Positions 7,353-19,009 of a stretch of DNA of 20,634 nucleotides are shown one piece after another. The DNA comes from a virus. The stretch lies in the IMG/VR virus record IMGVR_UViG_3300023179_003186, positions 1-20,634 of that record; one strand, 5' to 3'. The position numbers and the translations under genes are program-made. The stretch's first letter is position 1, and each line of letters begins with the position of its first letter. The notes beneath the pieces were generated by a model. That model saw only the letters and a program-made list of their open reading frames with translations. It was not told the DNA's origin and did not search any database.

Positions 7353-7451
7353 GGTCGATGCTAGGGTAGCTCCCTAGATGATCTGGTGCAATTCGGGATA
7401 GCACCAGCTAGAACGGGGTGCAGCTTTCGCGGTCGCACCAGAAGCCCGACC
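7353..7451 (+). ncRNA. Structured non-coding segment, possible four-way junction RNA
   Basis: No open frame fits here. GGTCG (7353-7357) can pair with CGACC (7447-7451) and enclose three hairpins: CTAGGG/CCCTAG (7361-7377, loop 5), CTGGTGC/GCACCAG (7383-7407, loop 11) and GGTGC/GCACC (7417-7439, loop 13). The result looks like a cloverleaf without a T-loop sequence. It ends two bases before the tRNA-like element at 7454, so the two may be one transcript. An alternative pairing of CCCG (7445-7448) with CGGG (7453-7456) competes. The fold was drawn by eye and is inference. Confidence 0.35.
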
Positions 7452-7453
7452 AC

Positions 7454-7571
7454 GGGTCAGTAGATCAGAGGTAGATCAGCGACCATTCGGAGTTGAAACG
7501 ATTCCGAACGGCGAAGCAGCAATGCGTAGCCGTCTGAGACGAGGACGTAGGTTCAAATCCTACCTGACCCC
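7454..7571 (+). tRNA. tRNA-like RNA with non-canonical middle (element 1)
   Basis: A perfect 7-bp acceptor stem forms from GGGTCAG (7454-7460) and CTGACCC (7564-7570). It is followed by T8-A9 and a textbook D arm, GATC-AGAGGTA-GATC (7463-7477). The T arm is GTAGG-TTCAAAT-CCTAC (7547-7563). No CCA is encoded. Between D and T arms lie 69 nt, against about 22-40 in ordinary tRNAs, and no 5-bp/7-nt anticodon arm with T33 can be drawn. Instead there is a stem TTCGGAG/TTCCGAA with a 9-nt loop (7486-7508) and a stem ACGGC/GCCGT (about 7508-7534) enclosing a GCAATGCGT segment. It could be a degenerate tRNA, an intron-bearing tRNA or a tRNA-mimic RNA. Confidence 0.55.
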
Positions 7572-7573
7572 TT

Positions 7574-7602
7574 GCAACCTAGCCCGCCGTGGGCTAGGTT
7601 GC
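7574..7602 (+). terminator. 12-bp perfect hairpin after tRNA-like element 1
   Basis: GCAACCTAGCCC (7574-7585) and its exact complement (7591-7602) flank a GCCGT loop, three bases after the tRNA-like element. There is no T-tract directly after it (TGATTCTAGGTTTATTTA follows), so it may be an RNA-processing or 3'-protecting hairpin and not a classical rho-independent terminator. From here to the gene at 7637 only a weak ribosome-binding site (AGAGGG) is seen. Confidence 0.5.
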
Positions 7603-11170: not shown

Positions 11171-12304
11171 ATGGCGTTGTCATCAAAGAAAACCCGAGAT
11201 AAAGCAGCAGAAGGTCGTGGCGGCGGTGTCCTGAGGATTCCTCAGGGCGAAAAGCCGCTCAAGATCGACAAGGCAGGTACGATCAAGATGGTGATCTTGC
11301 CGTACACTGTGCCTCAGGGTGCGAAGCACCCTGTCGCAAAGGACGGCGAGTTGCACTATGCTCGCGACTACTACGTCCACAACAACATGGGTTCAGACGG
11401 CAAAGGTTATGCCATCTGCCCTAAGTTGACCAAGGGCGGTAAATGCCCAATCTGTGACGGCATCAGTGCCGCCATTGATTCGGGGGAACTGACCAAGGAG
11501 ACGGCCAAGAAGTTCTACGCCAAGCAACGCACACTGTACACAGTGTGGTTGCCTGAGCAGAACCAAGTCGTGCTGTTTGACCACAGCTACCACCTGTTCT
11601 CCAAGCAGTTGAACACGACCGTTTCGGCCAAGGTCGCGATCCCAGGTCGCGAGTGGATTGACTACTTCGCTGATCCAGTCGAAGGTGCGTATATTTACGT
11701 CACCTTCGCCGAGAAGCCGCTTCCTGGCAATAAGTGCTACGAAGCCGTCTCGTTCGATTTCGACCGACACGGCGGCGTTCCCGATGCGATCTTGGCCCAA
11801 GCTCTGCAACTCGATAACCTGCTGGTTATCGAGAGTGCAGAAACCTTGAAGGCCAAGTTCTATGACGAAGATCCGGAGGATCTTTCGGCTGTCCCTGCTG
11901 AAACCGAGGCTCCCGCCACGGTTTCTGCTGAGATGAAACCAGTTCCGGCTCCAAAGCCGTTGGATATTCCGAAACCTGCTGTTCCTGAGTCAAAGGTGCA
12001 AAGACCCACGGTCACGACGACCCAACCACCAGCACCGGCGACTACGACGGCAGATTCCTGGCCTGCCAAGGGTTCGGTGGTTTACCACCGAACCTTGGGC
12101 CAAGTGACAGTCCACAAGAACGCCGGAGGGGTCATCAGCGTCTTTGACAAAGAGGATGAACCCCACAAGGTAAACTTGGCAGACTTGTCGCGAGAGCCTG
12201 TGGCACAAGCGACAGAAACCACGCCTGCGGCATCGCCGGAACCAGTACCAGCTTCCGCTGGTTCGGGTGATAGCGAAGCGTGGGATTCGGATTGGCCTGA
12301 GTAA
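11171..12304 (+). CDS. gp32-like single-stranded DNA-binding protein with extra C-terminal domain
   Basis: The 377-residue product has a basic N terminus (KKTRDKAAEGRGGG), which in T4 gp32 mediates cooperativity. It then has a zinc site H70-x12-C83-x8-C92-x2-C95, almost the same spacing as T4 gp32 (His-x12-Cys-x9-Cys-x2-Cys). The OB-fold core extends to about residue 235, with YFADPVEGAYIYVTFAEKP and FDFDRHGG segments. A long Pro/Ala/Thr linker (about 240-295) follows, then a small beta-rich segment (GSVVYHRTLGQVTVHK..., about 300-335) not present in T4 gp32. It ends in an acidic tail (SGDSEAWDSDWPE) like those that recruit partner proteins. It coats ssDNA at the fork and for UvsX. The extra domain is unusual. 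Confidence 0.85.
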   Translation: MALSSKKTRDKAAEGRGGGVLRIPQGEKPLKIDKAGTIKMVILPYTVPQGAKHPVAKDGELHYARDYYVHNNMGSDGKGYAICPKLTKGGKCPICDGISAAIDSGELTKETAKKFYAKQRTLYTVWLPEQNQVVLFDHSYHLFSKQLNTTVSAKVAIPGREWIDYFADPVEGAYIYVTFAEKPLPGNKCYEAVSFDFDRHGGVPDAILAQALQLDNLLVIESAETLKAKFYDEDPEDLSAVPAETEAPATVSAEMKPVPAPKPLDIPKPAVPESKVQRPTVTTTQPPAPATTTADSWPAKGSVVYHRTLGQVTVHKNAGGVISVFDKEDEPHKVNLADLSREPVAQATETTPAASPEPVPASAGSGDSEAWDSDWPE

Positions 12305-12316
12305 AACTCAGGCCCA

Positions 12317-12434
12317 GGATCGGCGGCGTGGTGGGACACGCAACCCCGTCTATTGGTTGGCAACTCACTGGCGAAATGCGTGACGGCGATGATGGTGATG
12401 TATGCTGACGCAGGTTCAAATCCTGCCCGATCCT
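12317..12434 (+). tRNA. tRNA-like RNA with non-canonical middle (element 2)
   Basis: A perfect 7-bp acceptor stem forms from GGATCGG (12317-12323) and CCGATCC (12427-12433). The T arm is GCAGG-TTCAAAT-CCTGC (12410-12426). A 5-bp D-arm-like stem GCGTG/CACGC with a GTGGGA loop lies at 12326-12341, but T8 is missing. No anticodon arm of normal geometry is found; the nearest candidate, AACC/GGTT, has a 9-nt loop (12342-12358). CCGTC (12346-12350) can also pair with GACGG (12382-12386). Length, acceptor/T arms, an AATGCGT segment and a GACGYAGG entry into the T arm are shared with the element at 7454, so the two are related or built alike. No CCA is encoded. It starts 12 bases after the gp32-like stop. 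Confidence 0.5.
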
Positions 12435-12437
12435 TTT

Positions 12438-12463
12438 GTCGGGACTTGTAAACAAGTCCCGAC
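12438..12463 (+). terminator. 12-bp perfect hairpin after tRNA-like element 2
   Basis: GTCGGGACTTGT (12438-12449) and its exact complement (12452-12463) flank two A residues. TTTT precedes it and GTTTTCG follows, so it could terminate in either direction or form the 3' end of the tRNA-like transcript. Its position right after a tRNA-like element repeats the arrangement at 7574-7602. Confidence 0.6.
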
Positions 12464-12471
12464 GTTTTCGC

Positions 12472-16477: not shown

Positions 16478-16672
16478 ATGGATAGTAATGAACTCACGAC
16501 GGATGCCGTCATATTGTTTTTGGAGCGAGAGATTGCCCAAGTTGAGAATTCTCGGTACGGTGAGGACGAGCGGCGATCCCCAGGGATTACGGCTTATTTA
16601 TACCAAGCACTCGAAAGAAGAAAAAAAGAAATCGCACACCAACCGGTTCCATCGGAGGCGAACAATGCCTAA
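16478..16672 (+). CDS. Small duplicated protein, copy 1
   Basis: The 64-residue acidic protein is helical and begins MDSNELTTDAVILFLEREIA. From residue 19 on it is identical to the protein at 18814. AGGAGG at 16465-16470 precedes ATG 16478; the bases GGAGGTCGAATAATGG around the start are also identical in the second copy. It overlaps queD by 8 bases. No family is recognised. Its importance is structural: its 3' three quarters form one arm of the direct repeat that brackets the Que cassette. Confidence 0.7.
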   Translation: MDSNELTTDAVILFLEREIAQVENSRYGEDERRSPGITAYLYQALERRKKEIAHQPVPSEANNA

Positions 16673-16673
16673 G
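16532..16673 (+). repeat. 142-bp perfect direct repeat, left copy
   Basis: This is identical base for base to 18868-19009. It covers most of the small gene at 16478 and the first nine bases (ATGCCTAAG) of queD. Recombination with the right copy would remove 2,336 bp carrying queD, the dpdA-like gene, queC and queE, and leave one intact small gene followed by the resolvase gene. Confidence 0.97.
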
Positions 16674-17021
16674 GTTCTGGTTTTCAAAGAGTTCGTATTT
16701 TATGCAGCACACAGCGTAAGTTGCTTTGGGATCGAACACAAATGCAACCGAATTCACGGTCACACTTACTACCTGAAAGTGGTAGCGAGTTCGGATATAC
16801 AACAACCTTACGAATTCGGAGCCTTAGAGAAAGATTGCTTAGCAATTATCGGAAGCCTCGATCATAGCAACCTAAATGACCATTCCGAAAAAATGGGTGG
16901 GGAAGCGACTACTGAAAGAGTCGCTTCTTGGATATTCGGTGAATTACGAAAAGCGGGTTGTCCCGTTTTTCGGGTAGAGTTACGAGAAACTAATAGTTCA
17001 GGAGTAGTGGTGGAACAATGA
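16665..17021 (+). CDS. queD: QueD, 6-carboxytetrahydropterin synthase
   Basis: The 118-residue product matches QueD in length and active site. Zinc ligands are H16, H31 and H33 (AAHSV and IHGHTYYL), and the catalytic cysteine is C27, the same numbering as E. coli QueD. LDHSNLND holds the catalytic Asp/His pair, ATTERVASWIF follows, and the C-terminal VELRETNSSG carries the catalytic glutamate. It converts dihydroneopterin triphosphate to 6-carboxytetrahydropterin, the second step to preQ0. GGAGG at 16654-16658 precedes the ATG. It overlaps the dpdA-like gene by ATGA. Confidence 0.93.
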   Translation: MPKVLVFKEFVFYAAHSVSCFGIEHKCNRIHGHTYYLKVVASSDIQQPYEFGALEKDCLAIIGSLDHSNLNDHSEKMGGEATTERVASWIFGELRKAGCPVFRVELRETNSSGVVVEQ

Positions 17022-17647
17022 AGATTCTTTTAGATACATCAGCAAAGCGGGCAGCAGCGGCGAACTTGCCAAACGATTTAGTCATCGGCCAACTGATAAC
17101 GCCTTTGACGGGATTCAAGCGGTGGGCAGATGTGTTTGCCATAGACAACGGAGCGTACACCCGATTCGATGCTCAGGGTTTCAAGAATTTGCTGACCCGA
17201 GAGTCAGGTGCATCCCAACAATGCCTGTTCGTGTGTTGCCCAGATGTTGTCGGCAATGCTCGGCGCACCCTCGAAATTTTCCAAAGAAAGTACAAGTATA
17301 TTCCAGCATCGTTCAAAGCAGCTTTGGTCGCGCAGGACGGTTTGGAGGACTTAGAAGTGCCTTGGCATGAACTTGAGTGTCTATTCATCGGCGGTCGAGA
17401 TCCTTGGAAGGATTCGCAATGCGCTCAGGATTTGGTCAAGACTGCTATTGTTCTGGGAAAGCATGTTCACATAGGCCGAGTGAACACCCCAGAACGGTAT
17501 GATCTGTTTGCTAAGTTAGGCGCACATACCTGCGACGGCTCGGGCATCGCTCGTTACCCAGATGTTAAATTGCCGAGTATGCAACAGGCTCACGACAAGT
17601 TTGTTGCTGATAGCCAAAAAATAGAGGAGGGCGAAGATTGTGAGTAA
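17018..17647 (+). CDS. dpdA: DpdA-like transglycosylase (7-deazaguanine insertion into DNA)
   Basis: The 209-residue product resembles the short phage TGT-paralog family. It has AIDNGAYTRFD (D43), VCCPDVVGNARRTLE (D76, candidate nucleophile region), AALVAQDGLED, LFIGGRDPWK, VHIGRVNTPERYDLFAKLGA and CDGSGIARYP. In phages this family exchanges guanine in DNA for a 7-deazaguanine base. The placement between queD and queC strongly supports that role. At 209 residues it is shorter than DpdA of bacterial Dpd clusters and closer to the small phage DpdA types. No four-cysteine zinc site as in tRNA TGTs is seen. It overlaps queD by ATGA and queC by 8 bases. The exact DpdA subtype is uncertain. Confidence 0.7.
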   Translation: MKILLDTSAKRAAAANLPNDLVIGQLITPLTGFKRWADVFAIDNGAYTRFDAQGFKNLLTRESGASQQCLFVCCPDVVGNARRTLEIFQRKYKYIPASFKAALVAQDGLEDLEVPWHELECLFIGGRDPWKDSQCAQDLVKTAIVLGKHVHIGRVNTPERYDLFAKLGAHTCDGSGIARYPDVKLPSMQQAHDKFVADSQKIEEGEDCE

Positions 17648-18245
17648 CTGCGTATGTTTACTTTCAGGTGGGATGGATTCAACCACACTCGTCACTAAAT
17701 TAGTAAGGGATGGATTCTCGCCTACCTGTGTTAGTTTTGATTACGGTCAGCGACATAGAAAAGAGATTCGATATGCCGCTAGAACCGCAGATAAATTGCA
17801 GCTACGGCATTTGATACTCGAAGCCCCTATACAAAGCCACAGCGCGCTCCGAGGGCACTCAGAGATTCCTCAGAACCTATCTCCTGCTGACTCCGGCCAA
17901 TCCCCAACGGTTGTGCCGGGTCGTAATCTAGTTTTGATTTCCTTGGCTATGACCGTAGGATGCGGGCCTGTCTATGTCGGGTGTAATGCCGACGATGCGG
18001 CAGTGTATCCGGATTGTAGACCTGAGTTCATTAAGCACTTATCATTGGCCACACAAGCAGCTTACGGTAGATCGGTAGAGGCTCCGTTTGTTGCCATGTC
18101 CAAGGTGGATATTTATCGACTTTATGTTGAATTGGGATTGAAATCAAACGATTCGTGGTCATGCTACAACGGCAAGGGCACTCCTTGTGGAGTTTGCGGG
18201 CCTTGTATTGCTATCAGAGGAGCAAAAGAAACATGCCAAAAATAG
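17640..18245 (+). CDS. queC: QueC, 7-cyano-7-deazaguanine (preQ0) synthase
   Basis: The 201-residue product has the PP-loop ATPase motif LLSGGMDSTT (8-17), the SFDYGQRHRKE motif, VPGRNLVLIS, the DAAVYPDCRPEF segment and the C-terminal zinc knuckle CYNGKGTPCGVCGPC. QueC converts 7-carboxy-7-deazaguanine to preQ0 with ATP and ammonia. The start is GTG 17640, with GAGGAGG just upstream at 17624-17630 and an 8-base overlap with dpdA. No QueF (preQ0 reductase) or amidotransferase domain is fused to it, so preQ0 is the predicted end product. It overlaps queE by 13 bases. Confidence 0.94.
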   Translation: MSNCVCLLSGGMDSTTLVTKLVRDGFSPTCVSFDYGQRHRKEIRYAARTADKLQLRHLILEAPIQSHSALRGHSEIPQNLSPADSGQSPTVVPGRNLVLISLAMTVGCGPVYVGCNADDAAVYPDCRPEFIKHLSLATQAAYGRSVEAPFVAMSKVDIYRLYVELGLKSNDSWSCYNGKGTPCGVCGPCIAIRGAKETCQK

Positions 18246-18814
18246 GGATAGCTAAGATATTTGAATCCTTCCAAGGTGAAGGAATACATGCCGGTGAGTA
18301 CACTCTGTTTATCCGAACTTCTGGGTGTTCGGTAGGTTGCCCGCAATGCGACACAGATTACCGGCGAACTGGATGGTTAGATATAGATGCAGTTAGCCGC
18401 CAAATGGAGACATTTGGGGGTAAGTATCTTTGGGTCACAGGAGGCGAGCCTACCGATTGGCCTGACATCAATGTCTTAGCTGAACTGGCGCACAAACATG
18501 GCTTGACTCCAATCATGGCTACTTCCGGTGTGCGATTCGTAAATGGTCTATGGGAAAAATACTGTAGCCCGCACAAAGCGAAGCTGCCGTGTTTAACTTG
18601 GTACGATCAAATAAACCTAGTTCCTGGTTTGAACGGATTGTCTAAGGAATCTTGTGTGGAGTACATACAAGAATGGCACTACAAGGTAGCTTACGTCACG
18701 CCTCTCTACGGGGACTCACAATCGTTGACTGTGTGTAAAGAATTGGTCAAGGAGTTTGCAAAAAAGAACGTGCGATTGGGCCACCAATCGCACAAAGTAT
18801 GGGAGGTCGAATAA
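18233..18814 (+). CDS. queE: QueE, 7-carboxy-7-deazaguanine synthase (radical SAM)
   Basis: The 193-residue product has the QueE start IFESFQGEG, the radical-SAM cluster motif CSVGCPQCD (C32, C36, C39), TGGEPTDWP and the PCLTWYDQINLVPG segment. It rearranges 6-carboxytetrahydropterin to 7-carboxy-7-deazaguanine. It is slightly shorter than most QueE (about 210-220). ATG 18233 is chosen because the conserved IFESFQGEG begins nine residues later. The stop shares a base with the next ATG (TAATG). A 10-bp perfect stem with a GCCA loop (18770-18793) lies near its 3' end, the only strong stem in the cassette. Confidence 0.92.
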   Translation: MPKIGIAKIFESFQGEGIHAGEYTLFIRTSGCSVGCPQCDTDYRRTGWLDIDAVSRQMETFGGKYLWVTGGEPTDWPDINVLAELAHKHGLTPIMATSGVRFVNGLWEKYCSPHKAKLPCLTWYDQINLVPGLNGLSKESCVEYIQEWHYKVAYVTPLYGDSQSLTVCKELVKEFAKKNVRLGHQSHKVWEVE

Positions 18815-19008
18815 TGGCGAATACTCAATCGGATGCGGACGCTGTAGTATTATTTTTGAAGCAGGAAATTGCCCAAGTTGAGAATTCTCGGTACGGTGAG
18901 GACGAGCGGCGATCCCCAGGGATTACGGCTTATTTATACCAAGCACTCGAAAGAAGAAAAAAAGAAATCGCACACCAACCGGTTCCATCGGAGGCGAACA
19001 ATGCCTAA
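18814..19008 (+). CDS. Small duplicated protein, copy 2
   Basis: This is a 64-residue protein beginning MANTQSDADAVVLFLKQEIA. From residue 19 on it is identical in protein and DNA to the protein at 16478; the first 18 residues are diverged but clearly related (ADAVVLFLKQEIA versus TDAVILFLEREIA). GGAGG at 18802-18806 precedes the ATG. The divergence of the first 54 bases alongside perfect identity afterwards suggests an old duplication followed by recent gene conversion, or acquisition by recombination inside the gene. It overlaps the resolvase-like gene by 8 bases. Confidence 0.7.
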   Translation: MANTQSDADAVVLFLKQEIAQVENSRYGEDERRSPGITAYLYQALERRKKEIAHQPVPSEANNA

Positions 19009-19009
19009 G
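18868..19009 (+). repeat. 142-bp perfect direct repeat, right copy
   Basis: This is identical to 16532-16673. It ends in ATGCCTAAG, the first three codons of the resolvase-like gene, just as the left copy ends in the first three codons of queD. The repeat boundary therefore lies inside the next gene on both sides, which keeps the downstream start codon and ribosome-binding site intact after recombination. Confidence 0.97.

Follow-up and report, generated by a model that had tools for sequence, protein, structure and literature searches.

The window (the whole stretch of viral DNA that was analysed, 20,634 nt, IMG/VR record IMGVR_UViG_3300023179_003186) contained two tRNA-like elements of the same length, each flanked by hairpins (Table 1). 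Element 1 lay directly behind a hairpin RNA, here called module X, and element 2 followed the end of an ssb-like gene.

Table 1. Positions of the two elements, their parts and the adjoining hairpins in the window.
Feature	Position	Strand	Sequence or structure	Basis or remark
Module X, hairpin RNA directly 5′ of element 1	7353–7452	+		z −3.2; found in relatives; compensatory pairs
Element 1, tRNA-like RNA without anticodon arm	7454–7571	+	117 nt plus discriminator C	Rfam tRNA 43.3 bits; fold z −5.0
Element 1, acceptor 5′ strand	7454–7460	+	GGGTCAG; 7/7 pairs with 7564–7570; then T8-A9 at 7461–7462	
Element 1, D arm	7463–7477	+	GATC-AGAGGTA-GATC	Rfam tRNA alignment
Element 1, core in place of anticodon arm and variable region	7478–7546	+	10-bp hairpin 7486–7508; hairpins 7510–7531 and 7532–7546	
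Element 1, T arm	7547–7563	+	GTAGG-TTCAAAT-CCTAC	Rfam tRNA alignment
Element 1, acceptor 3′ strand	7564–7570	+	CTGACCC	Sequence
12-bp hairpin just 3′ of element 1	7574–7602	+	Terminator-like, without T run	Sequence
Hairpin adjoining element 2 on its 5′ side, at end of ssb-like gene	12294–12314	+		
Element 2, constant-shell family member	12317–12434	+	GGATCGG CG GCGTGGTGGGACACGC ... GCAGGTTCAAATCCTGC CCGATCC; core 12342–12409	
Intrinsic-terminator-like hairpin directly 3′ of element 2	12437–12464	+		

Anatomy of the Two Elements

The cmscan search of the window assigned element 1 to the tRNA family RF00005 with 43.3 bits (gathering score 29, E = 2.3e-6). The alignment skipped the anticodon arm and read the middle as a 60-nt insert, and ARAGORN called no tRNA at this position. 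The seven acceptor pairs were all Watson-Crick, the D loop contained G18 and G19, and a C preceded the T stem. All elbow contacts of a tRNA were possible as read from the sequence, namely T8:A14, G15:C48, G18:T55, G19:C56, and T54:A58. The original prediction, which had described canonical acceptor, T8-A9, D and T arms and had named ARAGORN and a covariance model as checks, was thus borne out on this point. It had also held that the 69-nt middle could not form a 5-bp/7-nt anticodon arm with T33 and made other stems instead. Both statements agreed with our analysis: the sole hairpin of that size in the middle, GGAGT-TGAAACG-ATTCC (starting at 7489), had G33, and the core formed one long and two small hairpins. 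The segment GCGAC, which would be the 5′ half of an anticodon stem after position 26, had no 5-bp partner, and no intron-split anticodon stem (27–31) with halves around the insert was found. No tmRNA was detected by ARAGORN or Rfam, the latter giving only T-arm fragments below the gathering score.

The whole of element 1 folded at −45.0 kcal/mol (z = −5.0), and none of 200 shuffles was equally stable; the core alone gave z −2.6 against shuffles. A search for terminator patterns gave no match at the hairpin 3′ of the element. A weak, partial match to RAGATH-28 (RF03052) at 7444–7517 was rejected, as it scored 23.3 bits (E = 0.038), far below the gathering score of 45.3, and was not repeated in other arrays. 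The core of element 1 had a single match in the viral contigs, which resembled coding sequence and was attributed to chance.

Element 2 had a core of its own, enclosed by the ends GGATCGG CG GCGTG-GTGGGA-CACGC and GCAGG-TTCAAAT-CCTGC CCGATCC. Its tRNA match of 26.8 bits was below the gathering score of RF00005. The model of the constant-shell family described below (R1) matched it with 55.9 bits, element 2 being itself among the 40 training sequences. It had both marks of that family, the 5′ shell GGATCGG CGGCG and the complementary T arm and acceptor. Element 1 matched the same model only in part (12.6 bits, E = 0.21) and did not have the shell sequence. Judged by its sequence, it is a related variant that shares the anatomy of the family and not its sequence, with its own acceptor, a unique core and a canonical tRNA D arm.

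A Family with a Constant Shell and Exchanged Cores

Relatives were obtained via the polymerase and ssb-like genes, and most of them had such elements, with different middles, in the two intergenic positions that they occupy in the window. Element 2 belongs to a family of RNAs whose tRNA-like shell (GGATCGGCGGCGTGG...GCAGGTTCGAATCCTGCCCGATCC) is near-constant and whose enclosed core is different in nearly all phages. Searches of viral contigs returned 55 stretches with the 3′ shell, mostly such elements, and at least 119 with the 5′ shell, which were real in part. Only elements with a complete acceptor and T arm were kept for the catalogue. It comprised 87 distinct sequences that fell into 60 core clusters, a few short tRNA-like genes of the ordinary kind among them; 54 clusters were left when the short T8 forms were removed. 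The elements were mostly collected by fixed acceptor patterns, so that part of the shell was preset and the diversity of the acceptor is underestimated. A generic scan for an acceptor plus T arm was dropped, since it gave many chance matches inside genes.

Family members ranged from 65 to 189 nt. Positions 8–9 were CG instead of the tRNA TA in 66 of 74 distinct shells, and many T loops deviated from TTCRA. With the covariance model of the shell, most phage elements scored 33–65 bits and the weakest listed 26–32, most of the scored members being in the training set and several outside it. The top score among 31 bacterial control loci, picked for the 5′ shell word, was 28 bits. The middles also varied in a second shell family (GCCCCGGAAGTTATTGCGG...TCGGGGC), whose elements often lay directly after those of the first. 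Single-linkage clustering by shared proteins joined 74 of the 86 loci into a single component, which says little about lineages.

Several short or composite forms were observed. In the minimal members of 65–68 nt (L058, L087, L263, L272, L148, and L026:6697), the 5′ shell paired with a conserved AACATCGWGTATCCC segment and formed a two-arm RNA. Genes of 67–70 nt with an anticodon-like stem and a 6-nt loop (L003:9351–9417, also L120, L148, L263, and L274) were tRNA-like and are possibly intermediates between tRNAs and the core-bearing elements. The tRNA-like element at L173:8888–9031 held in its core an apparent 5′ half of a normal tRNA.

The exchange of cores was seen at one locus, the slot behind the ssb-like gene. 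L015 and the window had ssb genes with 96.6% identity and, over the next 120 nt downstream, 97% identity, whereas the cores shared 42% identity in a gapped global alignment, on par with unrelated cores in the same comparison. The L015 element was 177 nt long and that of the window 117 nt. In L025, whose ssb gene was 98.6% identical to that of the window, the same core was kept. The difference between L015 and the window is core replacement, not decay. One core was also found at two sites of a single genome (L017).

Genomic Context

The elements were located between genes, at gene ends, and in arrays, often beside real tRNAs. Up to six model matches per array were found in phages of 119 and 205 kb: the former (G001) had a run of elements within about 2 kb, and the latter (G002) had two arrays, with hairpins in the array spacers. 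A strong hairpin abutted the 5′ end of 45% of the distinct elements compared with 7.6% of shuffles. In L053, a tRNA-Thr next to an element had an acceptor and T arm identical to those of the element.

Module X ended in GACCA or CACCA directly before element 1. In L007 and L033 it preceded other tRNA-like elements, and in place of element 1 an ordinary tRNA-Arg stood behind the same module in L009 and L010. Two array phages encoded predicted stop-reading tRNAs, at L232:938–1012 and L237:641–713 (TCA, assigned as SeC, and CTA, assigned as Pyl), a hint that stop codons may be suppressed or recoded.

Co-variation and Folding

Compensatory changes were found in the acceptor (GGATCAG/CTGATCC), the T stem and the D stem of the family. 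The D and T loops changed together: T loops of the TT/TC type accompanied canonical-like D loops in 18 of 20 cases, and other T loops accompanied other D loops in 29 of 36. The association was significant by Fisher's test (p = 4e-7; p = 1e-5 with one member per core cluster), for D-loop classes that were defined only after inspection of the data, and in a label-free permutation of the exact loops (p = 0.011). A core type of about 140 nt occurred with four different T loops, the D loop changing alongside. Such co-variation is what a tRNA elbow would require.

Some core families had compensatory pairs, few of them in one family set. Taken alone, the cores were slightly more stable on average than shuffles (mean z −0.6), and by this measure some of them may be filler.

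Distribution and Comparison with Known RNAs

The family was seen only in uncultivated viral contigs and was not found in 84,980 bacterial and archaeal genomes or in 50,697 annotated phages. A GTDB scan with a 22-base pattern of the 5′ shell gave 31 bacterial or archaeal matches, none of which had the T arm and acceptor. BLAST against the annotated phages recovered no whole element, only tRNA 3′ halves that mostly belonged to ordinary tRNAs. No Rfam family covered the elements at gathering or relaxed thresholds. Literature searches found no description, with the reservation that a report in a subscription journal could be missed. An antisense or guide role was discarded, as a comparison of the cores with 2.27 Mb of DNA from related phages turned up only what seemed to be further copies.

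The tmRNA likewise has tRNA-like ends without an anticodon arm around a long insert, but it exceeds 300 nt, and its insert is a single, conserved one that contains a tag reading frame. Adenovirus VA RNA and the herpesvirus tRNA-miRNA RNAs are viral small RNAs that combine tRNA-like features with variable functional parts, as the elements do; however, they belong to eukaryotic viruses, differ in sequence and structure, and have no constant tRNA shell. Phage-encoded tRNAs resemble the elements in neighbourhood, arrays and, for the tRNA-Thr of L053, an identical acceptor and T arm, but they decode, which elements without an anticodon arm cannot do. The closest anatomy is that of the engineered tRNA scaffold, in which the acceptor, T and D arms are kept and the anticodon stem-loop is the insertion region for an arbitrary RNA, and which in E. 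coli is stable and is processed and protected like a tRNA (PMC3753655). That scaffold is man-made, whereas the phage elements are natural and carry many exchanged inserts, with processing that we infer. No natural family among those compared fitted, and the system appears to be new in kind; a cautious placement may be that of a variant among tRNA-like noncoding RNAs.

Possible Role of the Elements

The explanation that we put first, with about an even chance of being right, is that the elements are natural tRNA scaffolds bearing interchangeable RNA cores. Within a phage transcript, the two ends of the element would fold together as the acceptor, D-arm and T-arm portion of a tRNA. Host tRNA enzymes would then excise the RNA, with RNase P acting at the 5′ end and, at the 3′ end, RNase Z or RNase E plus trimming and the addition of CCA. 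The product would be nuclease-resistant, and a core of about 15–150 nt would stand where the anticodon arm was, as the working part. Cores would move as cassettes between phages through recombination in the conserved shell. Excision and display of the core are proposed because the anatomy equals that of the engineered scaffold, and stability and a cargo function are proposed as well. Recognition as a tRNA is not certain, because the T loops often depart from TTCRA and most members have C8-G9. Fast turnover of the cores and their restriction to phages suggest a role in conflict with the host, for example by binding a defence or RNA enzyme or serving as its decoy. A more specific form of the proposal, an exchangeable-cassette system with a constant, host-matured tRNA-mimic chassis that shows rapidly swapped cores as defence inhibitors or regulators, is tentative and in our estimate less likely than not; its logic would be comparable to that of collections of anti-defence proteins.

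If transcribed and processed, the elements would mirror in nature what the engineered scaffold does in the laboratory and would form a new class of small RNAs in phages; their structured cargoes, available by the dozen, could be tested directly. The purpose of phage tRNA arrays would then appear broader, some unclassified phage tRNA-like genes would be explained, and new RNA-based counter-defences could come to light. The constant shell is a simple handle for mining more members.

The main rival, to which we give a limited share of the probability, is mRNA punctuation: RNase P would cut at G1, the upstream mRNA would keep a protective 3′ hairpin, and the core would be filler. An acceptor plus T arm is a minimal substrate of RNase P, the elements lie at gene ends (element 2 between the post-ssb hairpin and a terminator), abutting upstream hairpins are enriched, and the low mean z of the cores fits as well. 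However, punctuation does not account for successive elements in arrays without a gene between them, or for core families that are common to different phages and have compensatory pairs. Cores of up to about 140 nt in compact genomes are also unlike filler.

It is unlikely that the whole RNA is a sponge or decoy for tRNA-acting enzymes, such as the CCA-adding enzyme, Cas12a3 or anticodon nucleases, with the missing anticodon keeping it from translation. The original prediction had offered a substrate or decoy of CCA-adding or tRNA-cleaving defence enzymes as an example of what the mimic might be. The preserved acceptor, T arm and elbow and the occurrence in phages only are consistent with this. 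The defence enzyme Cas12a3 binds the acceptor and T arm (PMC12851939), and phage tRNAs counter defences that target tRNA (PMC10264068; PMC11555353). However, a decoy for the shell leaves the diverse, swapped cores unexplained, and anticodon nucleases require the anticodon loop.

Mobile cassettes at the DNA level, in which the palindromes of the shell are recombination or transposition ends and the likeness to tRNA is incidental, are quite improbable. Exchange of whole cores between near-identical flanks and the core at two sites in L017 would agree with them, but the co-variation of the D and T loops, the compensatory stem changes and the arms shared with the tRNA-Thr of L053 speak for RNA. 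An unsystematic look beside the elements revealed neither a transposase nor an integrase.

Decaying tRNA genes, already disfavoured, have a very small probability. The continuum to real tRNAs, the real tRNA in the same slot of L009 and the T loops off consensus were weighed against a shell that is constant across dozens of phages, co-variation and arrays; the near-constant 5′ sequence also differs from the usual tRNA D arm. The original prediction had taken element 1 for a functional mimic of a tRNA whose middle had been replaced, unless relatives had an ordinary tRNA of which this copy was a mutated form. The tRNA-Arg of L009 and L010 differs in its acceptor, D and T arms, and the preference for mimicry over decay was upheld by the large family, constant shell, exchanged cores and loop co-variation. 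The comparison with related phages that it had proposed revealed the exchangeable-core family, which it had not foreseen. The other alternative it had offered, a tRNA whose intron sits in an unusual position, has hardly any probability: Rfam takes the middle as an insert, but element 1 has no split anticodon stem, there are about 60 core clusters, and the 65-nt members have no anticodon arm.

Elsewhere in the window, a 174-nt direct repeat with 95% identity was present at 16500–16673 and 18836–19009, and its copies lay ahead of genes for a QueD-like (PTPS) protein and a PDDEXK endonuclease. At 16488–18814, genes for QueC, a QueD-like (PTPS) protein and a radical-SAM (QueE-like) protein adjoined a phage protein gene (17018–17647, phrog_15826) whose product may be DpdA-like, as judged by eye. 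From these predicted genes, 7-deazaguanine modification of the DNA is possible.
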